A DNA stretch of 8,147 nt, taken from NCBI GenBank assembly GCA_903864555.1, contig CAIPGJ010000133.1:1-8147 (forward strand). The letters run 5' to 3'. The stretch is from an uncultured Pseudomonadota bacterium (GTDB lineage Bacteria; Pseudomonadota; Gammaproteobacteria; Burkholderiales; SG8-39). Shown piece after piece: positions 2,601 through 8,147 of the stretch. How positions within the stretch are numbered: position 1 is the stretch's first letter; every line of letters begins with the position of its first letter. A program made the translations under genes and the position numbers. Under the pieces are notes generated by a model. That model had not been told where the DNA came from and did no database searches. It saw only the letters and a list, made by a program, of their open reading frames with translations.

Positions 2601-3923
2601 ATGGACAACTGGTGGATACAAAGACTGGAGCGGGTGGTCAAAGTCCGTCCGGATGAAGTGAAGGCACTGCTGTGGGCCTTCGTCTATTTCTTCTGCCTGC
2701 TGTCTTCGTACTACATCCTGCGTCCGCTGCGCGACGAAATGGGCGTGGCCGCCGGTGTGGCCAATCTGCAATGGCTGTTCACCGGCACCTTTCTGGTCAT
2801 GCTGGTTGCCATGCCGGCCTTCGGTGCACTGGTGGCGCGGCTGCCGCGCAAGCGCTTCATCCCCTGGGTCTATCGTTTCTTCATCCTCACCCTGCTGGGC
2901 TTCTGGGCCTTGCTGCAGATGGATGAGGGGCGTGTCTATGTGGCACGTGCCCTGTTCATGTGGGTGAGCGTGTTCAACCTGTTCGTGGTGACGGTGTTCT
3001 GGGGTTTCATGTCGGACCTGTTCAGCTTCGCGCAGGGCAAGCGCCTGTTCGGCTTCATCGCCGCGGGCGGCACCGCTGGTGCGCTGGCCGGCCCGTCGCT
3101 GACCGCCGCGCTGGCCGTGCCGCTGGGGCCGGTGAACCTGCTGCTGGTGTCGGCCCTGCTGCTGGAGGCGGCCACCCAGTGCGCGCGCGGGCTGATGCGC
3201 ACGCCCATGGCTGTATCGGTACAGGCTGCGACCGCGCAGGGCGGGGGCGGTGCAGACCAGGCGGTGGGCGGCGGCATGATGGCCGGGCTGGTGGAGGTGA
3301 TGAAGTCGCCCTACCTGCTGCTCATCTGCGTGCATGTGCTGCTGCTGTCGCTGACCAACACCTTCCTCTATTTCCAGCAGGCCTCCATCGTCGCCGGCGC
3401 CTTTGACAGTCCGGCCGAGCGCACGCGGGTGTTTGCGCTGATCGACCTGTCAGTGGGCGTGATCACGCTGATGGTGCAACTGGCTTTCACCGGGCGCGTG
3501 CTGCTGCGCTGGGGGGCGGGCGTGGCCCTGGCCCTGCTCGCCGCGGTCACTATGGCCGGCTTTGCCGCGCTGGCGCTGGCGCCGCTGCTGATTGTGGTGA
3601 TCGCCTTCCAGTCCCTCAAGCGGGCCACCGAGTTCGCGCTGGCCAATCCGGCGCGCGAGACGCTGTTTACCGTCGTGACGCGTGAACAGAAATACAAGTC
3701 GAAGAGCTTCATCGACACCGCGGTGTTCCGCGGCGGCGATGCCGCCAGCGGCTGGGTGTATACGGGCTTGCGCAACATCGGCCTGGACCTGCCGGGCATC
3801 GCCTGGGTGGCGGTGCCCATTGCGGCCCTCTGGGGTGTGCTGCTGCTGAGGCTGGGTGGCATGCAATCGAAGCTTGCCCAGGCGCAAGGGGCGCAGGCAG
3901 AATCGCCGCAGGGCCGGGATTGA
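2601..3923 (+). CDS. MFS carrier, NTP/NDP exchange transporter-like
   Basis: A 440-residue polytopic inner-membrane carrier. Residues 1-21 are a polar N-terminus (ERVVKVRPDEVKALL). The first span carries AFVYFFCLLSSYYILRPLRDEMG (26-48), the signature of the MFS branch annotated as NTP/NDP exchange (ADP/ATP translocase-like) proteins. About eleven further hydrophobic segments follow, with a polar mid-loop at about 205-230 (TAQGGGGADQ). Late motifs FALANPARETLFTVVTREQKYKSK are at about 343-366. True nucleotide exchangers are best known in intracellular bacteria and plastids; free-living relatives have no settled substrate, so transport of nucleotides is not claimed. An ATG at 2568 lies in frame and adds 11 residues. 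I prefer 2601 because the conserved start of the family follows directly and a G-rich stretch precedes it. The gene ends 61 bases before the aldo/keto reductase, and the two may share a transcript. Confidence 0.82.
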   Translation: MDNWWIQRLERVVKVRPDEVKALLWAFVYFFCLLSSYYILRPLRDEMGVAAGVANLQWLFTGTFLVMLVAMPAFGALVARLPRKRFIPWVYRFFILTLLGFWALLQMDEGRVYVARALFMWVSVFNLFVVTVFWGFMSDLFSFAQGKRLFGFIAAGGTAGALAGPSLTAALAVPLGPVNLLLVSALLLEAATQCARGLMRTPMAVSVQAATAQGGGGADQAVGGGMMAGLVEVMKSPYLLLICVHVLLLSLTNTFLYFQQASIVAGAFDSPAERTRVFALIDLSVGVITLMVQLAFTGRVLLRWGAGVALALLAAVTMAGFAALALAPLLIVVIAFQSLKRATEFALANPARETLFTVVTREQKYKSKSFIDTAVFRGGDAASGWVYTGLRNIGLDLPGIAWVAVPIAALWGVLLLRLGGMQSKLAQAQGAQAESPQGRD

Positions 3924-3936
3924 ATCGACATCGGCA

Positions 3937-3961
3937 GGGCAGGGCGCCATGCGGCCTGCCC
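3937..3961 (+). other. intercistronic hairpin between carrier and reductase
   Basis: GGGCAGG (3937-3943) pairs perfectly with CCTGCCC (3955-3961). Inside, CGC (3945-3947) can pair with GCG (3951-3953) around a CAT loop after one G·G mismatch. No T-tract follows; the next bases are GTCACAAGAC. It may stabilise or partly terminate the transcript between the two genes rather than act as a classic terminator. The left arm shares GGGCAGGGC with the hairpin at 4980. Confidence 0.45.
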
Positions 3962-3973
3962 GTCACAAGACAC

Positions 3974-3978
3974 AGGAG
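3974..3978 (+). promoter_or_regulatory. ribosome binding site that fixes the reductase start
   Basis: AGGAG lies six bases before the ATG at 3985. This favours 3985 over the earlier in-frame ATG at 3856, which lies inside the carrier gene, and over the in-frame ATG at 4015. Confidence 0.75.
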
Positions 3979-3984
3979 ACAGGC

Positions 3985-4959
3985 ATGACTACAGGCAATG
4001 GCAATAATGGCGGGATGAAACTGACCCGCGCGGAATTCCTCAGGCTGGCCGGCGGCCTGGCGGGTGCTGGTGTGGCGGGTAGCCTGCTGGGGCCAGTGGG
4101 TGCGGCGCTGGCGGCGGAGGCGCCGGTGCTGCGCCGGCCCATTCCGTCCTCCGGCGAACTGCTGCCGGTGGTGGGCGTGGGCACCGCCGTGGTCTATGAA
4201 ATCCAGACCGCCGACGCCAAGTTTCCCAACCTGGTCGACAGCGTGCGCGCCTTCCTCGCCAATGGCGGCACCCTCATCGACACCTCGCCCACCTATGGCC
4301 GGGCGGAGCAGAACCTGGGCGAGATTTTCAAGCGCATCGGCGCCCCGGTGCGCAACCGTGCCTTCATCGCCACCAAGATCAGCACCACCGGGGAGCAGGC
4401 CGGCATCGACAGTGTGTTGCGTTCCTTCACCGACATGGGCGTGGACCGCATCGACCTATTGCAGGTGCACAACATCCGCGACACCAGCACCCACCTGCGC
4501 ACCATCCGCCGCCTCCGCGACGAGGGGAAGGTGCGCTATGTCGGCATCACCACCTCCTTCGACAACACCTACGAGGAGTACGAGCGCATCATGCGGCGCG
4601 AGAAGCTCGACTTCATCCAGATCGATTACGCGCTGGATAACCGCAACGCCGAGGAGCGCATCCTGCCGCTGGCGCGCGACCTGGGCATGGCCGCCATCAT
4701 CAACCTGCCATTCGGGCGCGGCCGCCTGTTCGCCAAGGCGCGCGGGCATGAACTGCCGGCCTTCGCCAAGGACATCGACTGTGCCAACTGGGCGCAGTTC
4801 TTCCTCAAGTTCCTGCTCGGGCATCCGGCGGTGAACGTGGTCATGCCCGGCACCGACCGGCCCGAGTACGCCCTGGACAACCTGAACGCCGCGCGCGGTC
4901 GCATCCCGGACGAGAAGATGCGCCAGCAGATGATCGCCTTCTGGGACAAGCTGGGATGA
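3985..4959 (+). CDS. exported aldo/keto reductase with imperfect Tat-like signal
   Basis: A 324-residue aldo/keto reductase that reduces a carbonyl with NAD(P)H, or oxidises the alcohol. The catalytic tetrad is visible: Asp99 and Tyr104 in LIDTSPTYG, Lys131 in IATKI, and His162 in LLQVHN. The later barrel carries FIQIDYALDNRNAE and the C-terminal MPGTDRPEYALDNLNAA typical of the family. Before the barrel (from about residue 50) there is an N-terminal signal: LTRAEFLRLAGGLAGAGVAG (13-32), a small-residue hydrophobic stretch, and a likely cleavage site at ALAAEA (41-46). The region looks like a Tat signal of the S/T-R-R-x-F-L type, but the second Arg is Ala16, so only Arg15 remains. Export is inferred; the path could be Tat or Sec. 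The barrel seems intact, so a working enzyme is likely. Substrate unknown. A hairpin with a short T-rich tail follows the stop. Confidence 0.88.
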   Translation: MTTGNGNNGGMKLTRAEFLRLAGGLAGAGVAGSLLGPVGAALAAEAPVLRRPIPSSGELLPVVGVGTAVVYEIQTADAKFPNLVDSVRAFLANGGTLIDTSPTYGRAEQNLGEIFKRIGAPVRNRAFIATKISTTGEQAGIDSVLRSFTDMGVDRIDLLQVHNIRDTSTHLRTIRRLRDEGKVRYVGITTSFDNTYEEYERIMRREKLDFIQIDYALDNRNAEERILPLARDLGMAAIINLPFGRGRLFAKARGHELPAFAKDIDCANWAQFFLKFLLGHPAVNVVMPGTDRPEYALDNLNAARGRIPDEKMRQQMIAFWDKLG

Positions 4960-4979
4960 ACGGGCGGCCCATGAACAAC

Positions 4980-6283: not shown

Positions 6284-7303
6284 ATGAGCAACAGCAATGT
6301 CATGCGCAGGGGTGGCCCTGCGCGTTCCCTGTTGGCGGCTGCCGCCCTGTGCTGCGGCAGCTTGTGTTGCGCACAGCAGGCGCTGGCGCAAAAAGATCCA
6401 GCCCCGGGATATCCTGCACGGGCGATACGCCTGGTCATCCCCTTTGCCGCAGGCGGGGTGCTCGATATCGTCGGCCGGCTGGTGACCACGCGCATGAGCG
6501 AGACCTGGGGCTTGCCGGCCCTCATCGACAACCGTCCCGGCGCCACCGGCACCATCGGCATGGACCAGGTGGCCAAGTCCCCGGCGGATGGCCATACCCT
6601 AGTCATGCTCATCATCAGCCACTCGGTGAATTCGGCGCTGGAAGGCAGCCGCATGCCTTACGACATCGTGCGCGATTTCTCACCGGTCACCCAGCTCACC
6701 AGCAATGCCTATGTGCTGTCGGTGAATGCGAAGCTGCCGGTGCGCACTGTGCAGGAGCTGATCGCCCACGCGCGCAGCAACCCGGTGCGCTTCGGTTCAT
6801 CGGGGACGGGTGGCGTGATCCACCTTGCTGGCGAATGGCTGGCGCTGTTGGCCAAGACAGGCAACATGACCCACGTGCCCTACAAGGGCAATGCGCAGGC
6901 CATGACTGATGTGGCCGGTGGCCATATCGAGATGATGTTCTCTTCGGTGCCGACGGCGAACGCGCCCGCGGCGCAGGGCCTGGTGCGGCCCATTGCGGTG
7001 ACATCGCCTAAGCGGCTGGGGCCTTTGCCGGATGTGCCCACGCTGCAGGAGTCGGGCTTCCCGACCTACGAGGTGGATGGCTGGTACGGCATTGCCGGGC
7101 CGAAGGGCCTACCCACCGGCATCATCGACAAGCTCAACCAGGAAATGGTGCGGGCCATCCGCTTGCCCGACACCCGCGACAAGCTCGCCGTCGACGGCAT
7201 GCTGCCGGTGGGCAGCACGCCAGCGCAGTTCGGTGCGTTGATCCGGGCCGAAGACGAGAAGTGGCGGCGCGTCGTGCAGGAGCGCGGGCTGGCCGTGAAG
7301 TAG
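6284..7303 (+). CDS. Bug-family (TctC-like) periplasmic solute receptor
   Basis: A 339-residue extracytoplasmic receptor of the tripartite tricarboxylate receptor group. Residues 1-35 form a Sec signal: basic MRRGGPAR, a hydrophobic stretch with four cysteines (LCCGSLCC, 22-29), and cleavage after ALA (33-35). No lipobox precedes these cysteines. The mature part opens with the family signature YPARAIRLVIPFAAGGVLDI (43-62). Other family segments are DNRPGATGTIGMDQVAKSPADGHTL (about 82-106), VPYKGNAQAMTDVAGGHIEM and PDVPTLQESGFPTYEVDGWYGIAGP. The ligand is usually a carboxylate or another small organic anion, but it cannot be told from sequence. No TctA/TctB membrane genes are near, as is common for the many orphan Bug receptors of betaproteobacteria. 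The convergent 2-hydroxyacid dehydrogenase further on hints at organic acid metabolism, weakly. It has its own candidate promoter and a very strong ribosome binding site. Confidence 0.94.
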   Translation: MSNSNVMRRGGPARSLLAAAALCCGSLCCAQQALAQKDPAPGYPARAIRLVIPFAAGGVLDIVGRLVTTRMSETWGLPALIDNRPGATGTIGMDQVAKSPADGHTLVMLIISHSVNSALEGSRMPYDIVRDFSPVTQLTSNAYVLSVNAKLPVRTVQELIAHARSNPVRFGSSGTGGVIHLAGEWLALLAKTGNMTHVPYKGNAQAMTDVAGGHIEMMFSSVPTANAPAAQGLVRPIAVTSPKRLGPLPDVPTLQESGFPTYEVDGWYGIAGPKGLPTGIIDKLNQEMVRAIRLPDTRDKLAVDGMLPVGSTPAQFGALIRAEDEKWRRVVQERGLAVK

Positions 7304-7370
7304 ACAGGTGCCTGAGTGCGGTGCGTCTGTGCCACGGGGCGCGTGTCGAAGCCACGGTATTTCCGGTGGG

Positions 7371-7434
7371 CATGATCACAATATTCTATTTAACGAAATA
7401 AAGACGGATATTGCTGTTCTTAATTGATCACAAT
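7371..7434 (+). promoter_or_regulatory. AT-rich island with direct and nested inverted repeats
   Basis: About 72% A+T over 64 bases. TGATCACAAT occurs at both ends (7373-7382 and 7425-7434), 52 bp apart, close to five DNA turns. Between them lie TATTT-AACG-AAATA (7387-7400) and an outer pair, CAATAT (7379-7384) with ATATTG (7408-7413). It looks like an operator or promoter region for the small gene at 7565. No clear -35/-10 pair was found, and no regulator can be named. Confidence 0.45.
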
Positions 7435-7526
7435 GGCTCTTCAGGTTCTGCCGTTTTTCCCACAGCACAAGCCGTTGCCAACCTACAGACTTCGCCCGCT
7501 TGACTGACTCGTCTGGGTTGCGGGGA
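7435..7526. other. leader segment without recognised gene
   Basis: No supported gene lies between the AT island and the leader hairpin. TTGCCA (7475-7480) and TTGACT (7500-7505) each match five of six bases of a -35 element, but neither has a fitting -10. A run of five T at 7454-7458 has no good stem before it. Confidence 0.35.
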
Positions 7527-7545
7527 GCCGGGCAGGGTGTCCGGC
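7527..7545 (+). other. leader hairpin, copy of the 4980 hairpin
   Basis: GCCGGGCA (7527-7534) pairs with TGTCCGGC (7538-7545) around a GGG loop. Arms and loop equal the hairpin at 4980-4999 except for one missing C in the loop. There is no T-tail, and the ribosome binding site of the small gene begins eight bases later. It probably acts in the 5' leader, if transcribed. Confidence 0.55.
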
Positions 7546-7560
7546 CCGATTGAAAGGGCC
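7543..7560 (+). promoter_or_regulatory. inverted repeat covering the small gene's ribosome binding site
   Basis: GGCCC (7543-7547) and GGGCC (7556-7560) form a perfect five-pair GC stem around GATTGAAA. The Shine-Dalgarno sequence AAAGGG (7553-7558) lies partly in the loop and partly in the right arm. The left arm shares GGC (7543-7545) with the upstream hairpin, so both structures cannot form at once. This is a possible translation switch. Confidence 0.45.
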
Positions 7561-7564
7561 ATCC

Positions 7565-7639
7565 ATGAACTCAGTCATTTACATTGTCGGGCTTGTCGTT
7601 GTCGTAGTTGCCATCCTGTCCTTCTTCGGGCTGCGCTGA
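7565..7639 (+). CDS. 24-residue single-span membrane peptide
   Basis: A very short gene: ATG at 7565, TGA at 7637-7639. The peptide begins MNSVIYIVGL, continues with five valines, and ends AILSFFGLR. It is one uninterrupted hydrophobic helix long enough to cross the inner membrane, with only a polar start (Asn-Ser) and a final Arg, which would favour the C-terminus facing the cytoplasm. AAAGGG (7553-7558) lies six bases before the ATG, a good ribosome binding site. The structured leader and AT-rich island upstream support a regulated gene rather than a chance frame. I have an unverified impression that peptides ending in LSFFGLR recur in betaproteobacteria. Function unknown; peptides of this kind often bind or tune a larger membrane protein. 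It is convergent with the dehydrogenase gene, with 53 bases between their stops. Confidence 0.72.
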   Translation: MNSVIYIVGLVVVVVAILSFFGLR

Positions 7640-7692
7640 GCAGTCGGAACAGGAATGGCCGGGGAACGCGTCTGAGGCGTCGCTGCACCCAG

Positions 7693-8147
7693 CTAGGGAT
7701 AAGTGGCTGCCCGCAGCGCCTCCTCGATACCACGCAACATCTCCTGCATGTCGGCGAGGCCATTGCGGCGCGAACCGCCCGCCGTGTGCGGGATCAGCAG
7801 CACGTCCGGCCGTCCGAGCAACGGGTCCTGCTCCTGCACCGGTTCCTCGTAGTGCACATCCATGGCCACCCCGCCCAGCCGTCCACTCGCCAGACAATCA
7901 AGCAATGCCTGGCGGTCGATCACGGCGGCGCGTGAGGTGTTGATCAGGAAGGCGCCGGGCTTGATCAGGCTCAGGCTCCGACCATCGACGACGCCGGCTG
8001 AGGCTGTATCGGAGGGCAGGTGTATGGACAGGAAGTCGGATTCCCGAAACAGGTCTTCCAGGCTGCGATAACTCACGCCGGTCGCGGCCTCGTCGGCAGC
8101 GCTGAGGCGATTGCGCTTGTGGTAGAGCACCTGCATGCCGAAAGCGC
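7693..8147 (-). CDS. D-isomer-specific 2-hydroxyacid dehydrogenase (5' end outside window)
   Basis: The C-terminal 150 residues of a cytoplasmic NAD(P)-dependent dehydrogenase that interconverts D-2-hydroxyacids and 2-oxoacids. The frame is open beyond the ATG complement at 8134-8136 (codons for Ala-Phe-Gly precede it), so the true start is beyond the edge. The visible part begins just after the expected GxGxxG motif, at AFGMQVLYHKRN. It includes DFLSIHLPSD, the catalytic Arg in LINTSRAAVID, the catalytic Glu in AMDVHYEEPV, and the catalytic His in LIPHTAGGS. All three active-site residues are thus present. The usual RG after the catalytic Arg is RA here, a mild change. The family includes glyoxylate/hydroxypyruvate, lactate and phosphoglycerate dehydrogenases; which one cannot be told without the N-terminal substrate domain. 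No terminator was seen between this gene and the small convergent gene. Confidence 0.92.
   Translation of the reverse strand, partial: AFGMQVLYHKRNRLSAADEAATGVSYRSLEDLFRESDFLSIHLPSDTASAGVVDGRSLSLIKPGAFLINTSRAAVIDRQALLDCLASGRLGGVAMDVHYEEPVQEQDPLLGRPDVLLIPHTAGGSRRNGLADMQEMLRGIEEALRAATYP

Follow-up and report, generated by a model that had tools for sequence, protein, structure and literature searches.

The DNA considered here is a stretch of 8,147 nucleotides from an uncultured bacterium, which we refer to as the window. Close to its end lies a very short open reading frame, and directly before it are two hairpins that overlap, such that only one of them can form fully. In the preliminary description of this DNA the arrangement was taken to be a translation switch controlling a very small membrane protein. 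Is the frame a gene, and if so, are the hairpins the means by which it is controlled?

The peptide gene and the hairpins of its leader

The features of the locus are collected in Table 1. The ATG at 7565 and the stop codon at 7637-7639 are read directly from the sequence and enclose 24 codons; the peptide has a hydropathy of 2.9 across 19 residues. On re-reading the sequence, the positions previously assigned to both hairpins, to the AAAGGG and to the frame were all confirmed.

Table 1. Features of the peptide locus, in coordinates of the window
Feature	Position	Strand	Description	Basis
CCTACAG, conserved upstream element	7482..7488	+	begins 83 nt before the start codon	
TGAC	7505..7508	+	weak counterpart, 1 nt off, of the CCGACA half-site	by eye
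Hairpin A	7527..7545	+	8 bp, loop GGG; position and sequence not kept in relatives	
Hairpin B	7543..7560	+	5 bp; overlaps A; covers GGG of the binding site	
Ribosome binding site AAAGGG	7553..7558	+		direct sequence reading
Peptide gene	7565..7639	+	24-residue single-helix membrane peptide MNSVIYIVGLVVVVVAILSFFGLR	conserved family, pS/pN, hydropathy

Hairpin A is formed by GCCGGGCA (7527-7534) with TGTCCGGC (7538-7545), including one G-U pair, and hairpin B by GGCCC (7543-7547) with GGGCC (7556-7560) around a loop of eight. The two have 7543-7545 in common, and stem B leaves the AAA of the binding site uncovered. Taken alone, the stems have energies of -12.6 (A) and -10.1 kcal/mol (B). In the proposed switch these would be alternative folds, B closing the binding site and A freeing it, with the balance shifted by a signal or by the point at which the RNA is cut off.

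The rarity of the arrangement speaks for the switch. Dinucleotide shuffling of the 70-nt leader, repeated 2000 times, produced an A-like stem of 8 bp in 3.8% of cases, a B-like one in 4.5%, and the two overlapping in just 0.05% (0.2% allowing an A stem of 6 bp), by criteria that were chosen after the sequence was seen. Across the window there are 11 hairpins of the 8-bp A type, where 6.0 are expected from 20 shuffles. The A/B arrangement is uncommon, and partly above chance. A second point in favor is that the stem predicted to win depends on where the RNA begins and stops; A is preferred for 7520-7580 (0.92), and B for RNAs reaching 7600 from starts at 7496-7520 (0.93-0.99).

The folding of the leader is otherwise ordinary in energy, with z = +1.0 for 7500-7640 and -0.33 for 7520-7580. 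When the leader before the binding site was shuffled, SD pairing over 7496-7640 was 0.50 for the real sequence and 0.52 for the shuffled ones; start-codon pairing was 0.78 compared with 0.59, a value reached by 23% of the shuffles. SD pairing, start-codon pairing and energy all fell inside the shuffled range for 7496-7600, 7496-7640 and 7520-7640. In the shorter RNA 7520-7580, 96-98% of 300 shuffles had a less open start region than the real sequence. A search of the whole window against Rfam at the gathering score gave no match.

A conserved family of 24-residue peptides

Neither Pfam nor NCBIfam contained a model matching the 24-residue peptide at cut-off. Against the Thivi_2564 family (NF041949, cut-off 33 bits) a 29-codon reading extended upstream scored a weak 18.6 bits and the 24-codon reading gave no match; that family differs in having a model of 51 positions. 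Scores against MPN207a (NF046005, cut-off 45 bits) were 12.7 and 14 bits. Window positions 7555-7645 had no match among phages and E. coli genomes, and literature searches with peptide strings and on small stress membrane proteins found no paper.

The search for relatives began from a degenerate DNA pattern that covered residues 5-24. In viral contigs this gave 12 matching stretches, all with one and the same peptide, and in species genomes at least 118 stretches holding 119 peptides. Together with plasmid loci, loci from protein searches of whole genomes and the window itself, these made up the family set, from which L070, L144, L145, L156, L157, L163, L184, L192, L195, L197 and L198, unrecognized by the peptide filter, were dropped before counting. 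In all, 181 frames were recognized, that of the window included; 180 have 24 codons and the remaining one has 23. There are 173 different sequences and 118 different peptides among them, and the frame in L199 is interrupted by an internal stop. Members come mostly from Alpha-, Beta- and Gammaproteobacteria. Among the 98 distinct 24-mers available when the set stood at 153 frames, G9, V12 and G22 were invariant, part of these being fixed by the search pattern; N2 (88 of 98) and I4 (85 of 98) lie at positions that the pattern did not fix. Synonymous change (pS = 0.631) is far above replacement change (pN = 0.175) over 16110 pairs, near saturation. Length, start and sequence are thus kept in the relatives, giving strong support to the membrane-peptide gene of the preliminary description; the frame 7565-7639 is a real gene.

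The gene is patchily distributed, being present in 24/299 and 10/150 genomes of two betaproteobacterial families. The closest DNA match among those listed is to an alphaproteobacterial metagenome-assembled genome (Pseudotabrizicola, L072:3832-3907), identical to window 7564-7639 at 86.8% over 76 nt; despite this, the two leaders do not align. The blastn matches listed for peptide loci begin at window positions 7554-7577, and none of those listed includes the hairpin stretch 7527-7552. We found no close relatives of the window's own species carrying the gene. The closest genome found (G196) contains two pieces of the transporter gene, at 72 and 76% identity to the window, and a search of it for the peptide gave nothing at E≤1. 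Of its 18.5-kb contig 9 kb were read, and these match the window nowhere but within 2631-4965. A tblastn search of plasmids with a 24-mer of rhizobial type gave no match, perhaps through low-complexity filtering, whereas DNA queries did match plasmids.

Some individual copies are of interest in their own right. L107 carries two adjacent peptide genes on one 8-kb stretch, with similar upstream regions that include GTACAG and GCGATTCGATCC. Records of a Firmicute (Jeotgalicoccus, L091) and a cyanobacterium (Scytonema, L121) hold members resembling the proteobacterial copies, and may be contamination. The copy in L070 has ATA at the usual place of the start, in place of ATG, GTG or TTG, and is possibly decayed.

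The family libraries searched do not include the peptide, nor do most of the gene tables consulted. No feature is listed at any of the four plasmid matches of the window. For an Agrobacterium-type copy, 25 of 32 plasmid matches lack a feature and seven lie on unannotated records, the feature table being incomplete (one such record lists a single feature). A rhizobial type has a feature at two of three matches, which in both is the next gene. On pSymB of S. meliloti, with 3239 features, a 24-codon copy (L380:1501-1575) falls between two DUF1236 genes, in a gap where nothing is listed. The same species has SEP6, described as a protein of fewer than 30 residues that is conserved in Hyphomicrobiales, is predicted to have a membrane helix and was recovered in the membrane/ribosome pellet (PMC10117765). 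The 24-residue L380 peptide is similar to SEP6 in so far as their descriptions can be compared, and may be the same peptide. Taken together, the matches indicate that the family is widespread and largely unannotated.

Leaders and promoters of the relatives

If the hairpins control translation, they might be expected in the leaders of the relatives. Among 141 non-redundant leaders, a stem blocking the SD sequence occurs in 22 (23.7 expected), and a mutually exclusive pair in five (0.95 expected), namely the window and four loci of Bosea type. In the 26 leaders of the CCTACA class, to which the window belongs, criteria of 5 bp gave an SD-blocking stem in nine (6.9 expected) and an exclusive pair in the window only (0.73 expected). 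The nearest taxonomic family found supplied three different leaders (L141, L142 and L143). None of them contains an SD-blocking stem, and two have some 6-bp hairpin elsewhere. The peptide is therefore kept where stem B is not, the very outcome that the preliminary description had named as telling against its switch. The overlap of the two hairpins stands, while their conservation in the promoter class of the window does not.

The leaders are nevertheless not without structure. Hairpins of at least 6 bp occur in 51 of the 141 (33.4 expected), and by the 5-bp criteria hairpins are present in 16 of the 26 CCTACA-class leaders (9.9 expected). The mean fold z of the 141 is -0.66, that of the window -0.12. 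Leaders overall tend to be somewhat more structured than shuffles, though not at the binding site, so that some RNA role is possible, and there may be a lineage-specific RNA device in the lineage of the window. By eye, the L149 leader has a 15-bp inverted repeat directly before the binding site; between L147 and L149 this repeat has changed on both arms with pairing mostly kept.

The best case for RNA control is an alphaproteobacterial genus of Bosea type (named after record titles), in which 55 of 61 genomes have the gene, in one to four copies each. Folding of its 57 non-redundant leaders is stronger than that of shuffles (mean z = -0.81, s.e. 0.16), and the four Bosea-type loci counted above have a stem pair analogous to A/B; both points lend the switch some support. 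In an alignment of 15 leaders of this type, one of five predicted pairs was changed on both sides (in four sequences), with a covariation term of 0.07. SD pairing in these leaders, however, is 0.60 compared with 0.64 on shuffling, the real value being higher in only 22 of 57. The Bosea-type data favor a hairpin rather than an SD switch. We rejected an SD-blocking stem, an exclusive pair and SD occlusion as family-wide features. With SD occlusion as in shuffled leaders, and the pair kept neither in the promoter class of the window nor in the closest family, control of the peptide by an A/B switch is very unlikely; of the original interpretation the membrane-peptide gene survives.

What, then, is shared by the upstream regions? 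The top dyad to emerge unprompted was GGAAC-N16-CGTT, in 18 of 140 regions. Allowing N15-19 it lies upstream of 28/140 copies, where random stretches would give 0.8 and the reverse strand has one, and GGAAC-N15-19-[CGT]GTT is present in 76 of 78 Bosea-type leaders. An exact GGAAC-N16-CGTT precedes the pSymB copy. This is the published motif of EcfG general-stress promoters (PMC7083833, PMC3892343), and EcfG is described as confined to Alphaproteobacteria (PMC3892343). Many alphaproteobacterial copies thus have a promoter of the same type as the genes of the EcfG regulon, and are by this sequence candidate members of it; the window differs in having no GGAAC-N-CGTT site. In 10 of the 28 leaders of EcfG type, 25-31 nt separate the end of the -10 box from the start codon, which leaves no room for a leader like A/B in those copies.

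The window has a different element. In 24 of 76 non-alphaproteobacterial leaders (selected by record titles, after removal of near-repeats), that of the window among them, CCTACA stands 83-90 nt upstream of the start; 0.45 is expected and the opposite strand has none. Its CTACA resembles the -10 element of RpoS promoters, given as CTAcacT in PMC3533512, with which CTACAGA of the window agrees at five of seven positions. In leaders of Variovorax type CCTACA is followed by a CCGACA half-site; the second half-site of the window is weak. One Variovorax-type contig of 1.99 Mb contains 25 TCCTACA sites, several inside genes. Those located 64-116 nt before a start with a binding site, listed without a control set, include sites in front of BON, Usp, hemerythrin and glycine-zipper genes as well as the peptide, and further such sites precede at least three frames that have no known domain or were not domain-tested. 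On these data the conserved part of the control of the locus appears to be the upstream element and not the hairpins.

Other upstream sequences were noted. Leaders of Rhodocyclales type (e.g., L084, L111, L147, L149, L151 and L155) have a second motif, GGCGTACAGAGC or GCGTACNGA, at about -86 to -118; GCGTACNGA occurs in 9 of the 76 non-alphaproteobacterial leaders (0.13 expected). In the window, TGATCACAAT occurs twice (7373-7382 and 7425-7434, spacing 52 nt), in an AT-rich stretch between a TctC-type receptor gene and the upstream element.

These promoters also bear on a quite different possibility, that the peptide is a type I toxin silenced by the structure of its leader together with an antisense RNA. 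It is very short, and like toxins of the Ibs/TisB kind has a single hydrophobic helix; it resembles those of Ibs type. The adjacent copies in L107, and a predicted long fold in which the leader is paired with the coding region, would fit such a toxin. Yet many copies, unlike those toxins, have stress-type promoters and short plain leaders, the peptide is conserved over long range across classes, and a scan of 7280-7720 for sigma-70 promoters and terminators found nothing, and hence no antisense promoter. We consider it improbable that the peptide is a toxin of this kind.

Neighboring genes and the role of the peptide

The neighbors of the peptide gene vary. The commonest family, in 12 of 148 contexts, lies directly behind the peptide and is a membrane protein without Pfam match. 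A gene of this family, for a membrane protein of about 365 residues, begins at the last base of the peptide stop codon, an overlap of 1 nt, in Ochrobactrum and Haematobacter plasmids (L167:2587-3681, L168:2576-3688), and likewise at loci L001-L012; it is possibly a translationally coupled partner in some Alphaproteobacteria. Other neighbors in some loci are CsbD, DUF892, PRC-barrel, AI-2E, DUF2254, DUF3309 and DUF3096. Families such as CsbD, DUF3309 and DUF892 are linked to stress.

The overlapping gene, the commonest neighbor and the strong conservation of residues might indicate that the peptide, as other single-helix subunits do, belongs to a membrane complex as a small, constitutively made part, the stress promoters being just one of several controls. 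It has no constant neighbor, and the contexts mostly differ. We regard a constitutive subunit as an unlikely explanation.

We think it probable that the locus encodes a stress-induced, single-pass membrane peptide of 24 residues, controlled mainly by transcription, with the hairpins incidental. Stress would turn on transcription, through EcfG in Alphaproteobacteria and through RpoS or another factor using CCTACA in Betaproteobacteria. On the short leader, ribosomes would then initiate at a binding site of the ordinary kind, and the peptide would insert in the inner membrane, tuning a partner or the membrane itself; the candidate partner in some Alphaproteobacteria is the protein of about 365 residues. 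Hairpins A and B would be incidental, or A at most a stem at the 5′ end, and there would be no conserved on/off switch.

A broader reading, which we put forward tentatively and hold to be somewhat short of an even chance, is that one 24-residue peptide is the shared effector of two unrelated stress systems, EcfG in Alphaproteobacteria and an RpoS-like, CCTACA-dependent system in Betaproteobacteria and perhaps Gammaproteobacteria. Falling below the length that gene callers accept, it would have escaped notice.

For GC-rich genomes, the locus indicates that leader hairpins should be compared with shuffles and with relatives before a switch is proposed. For the family, conservation that is nearly residue for residue across proteobacterial classes, combined with differing stress promoters, would point to a common task at the membrane in stress that present annotation has missed.
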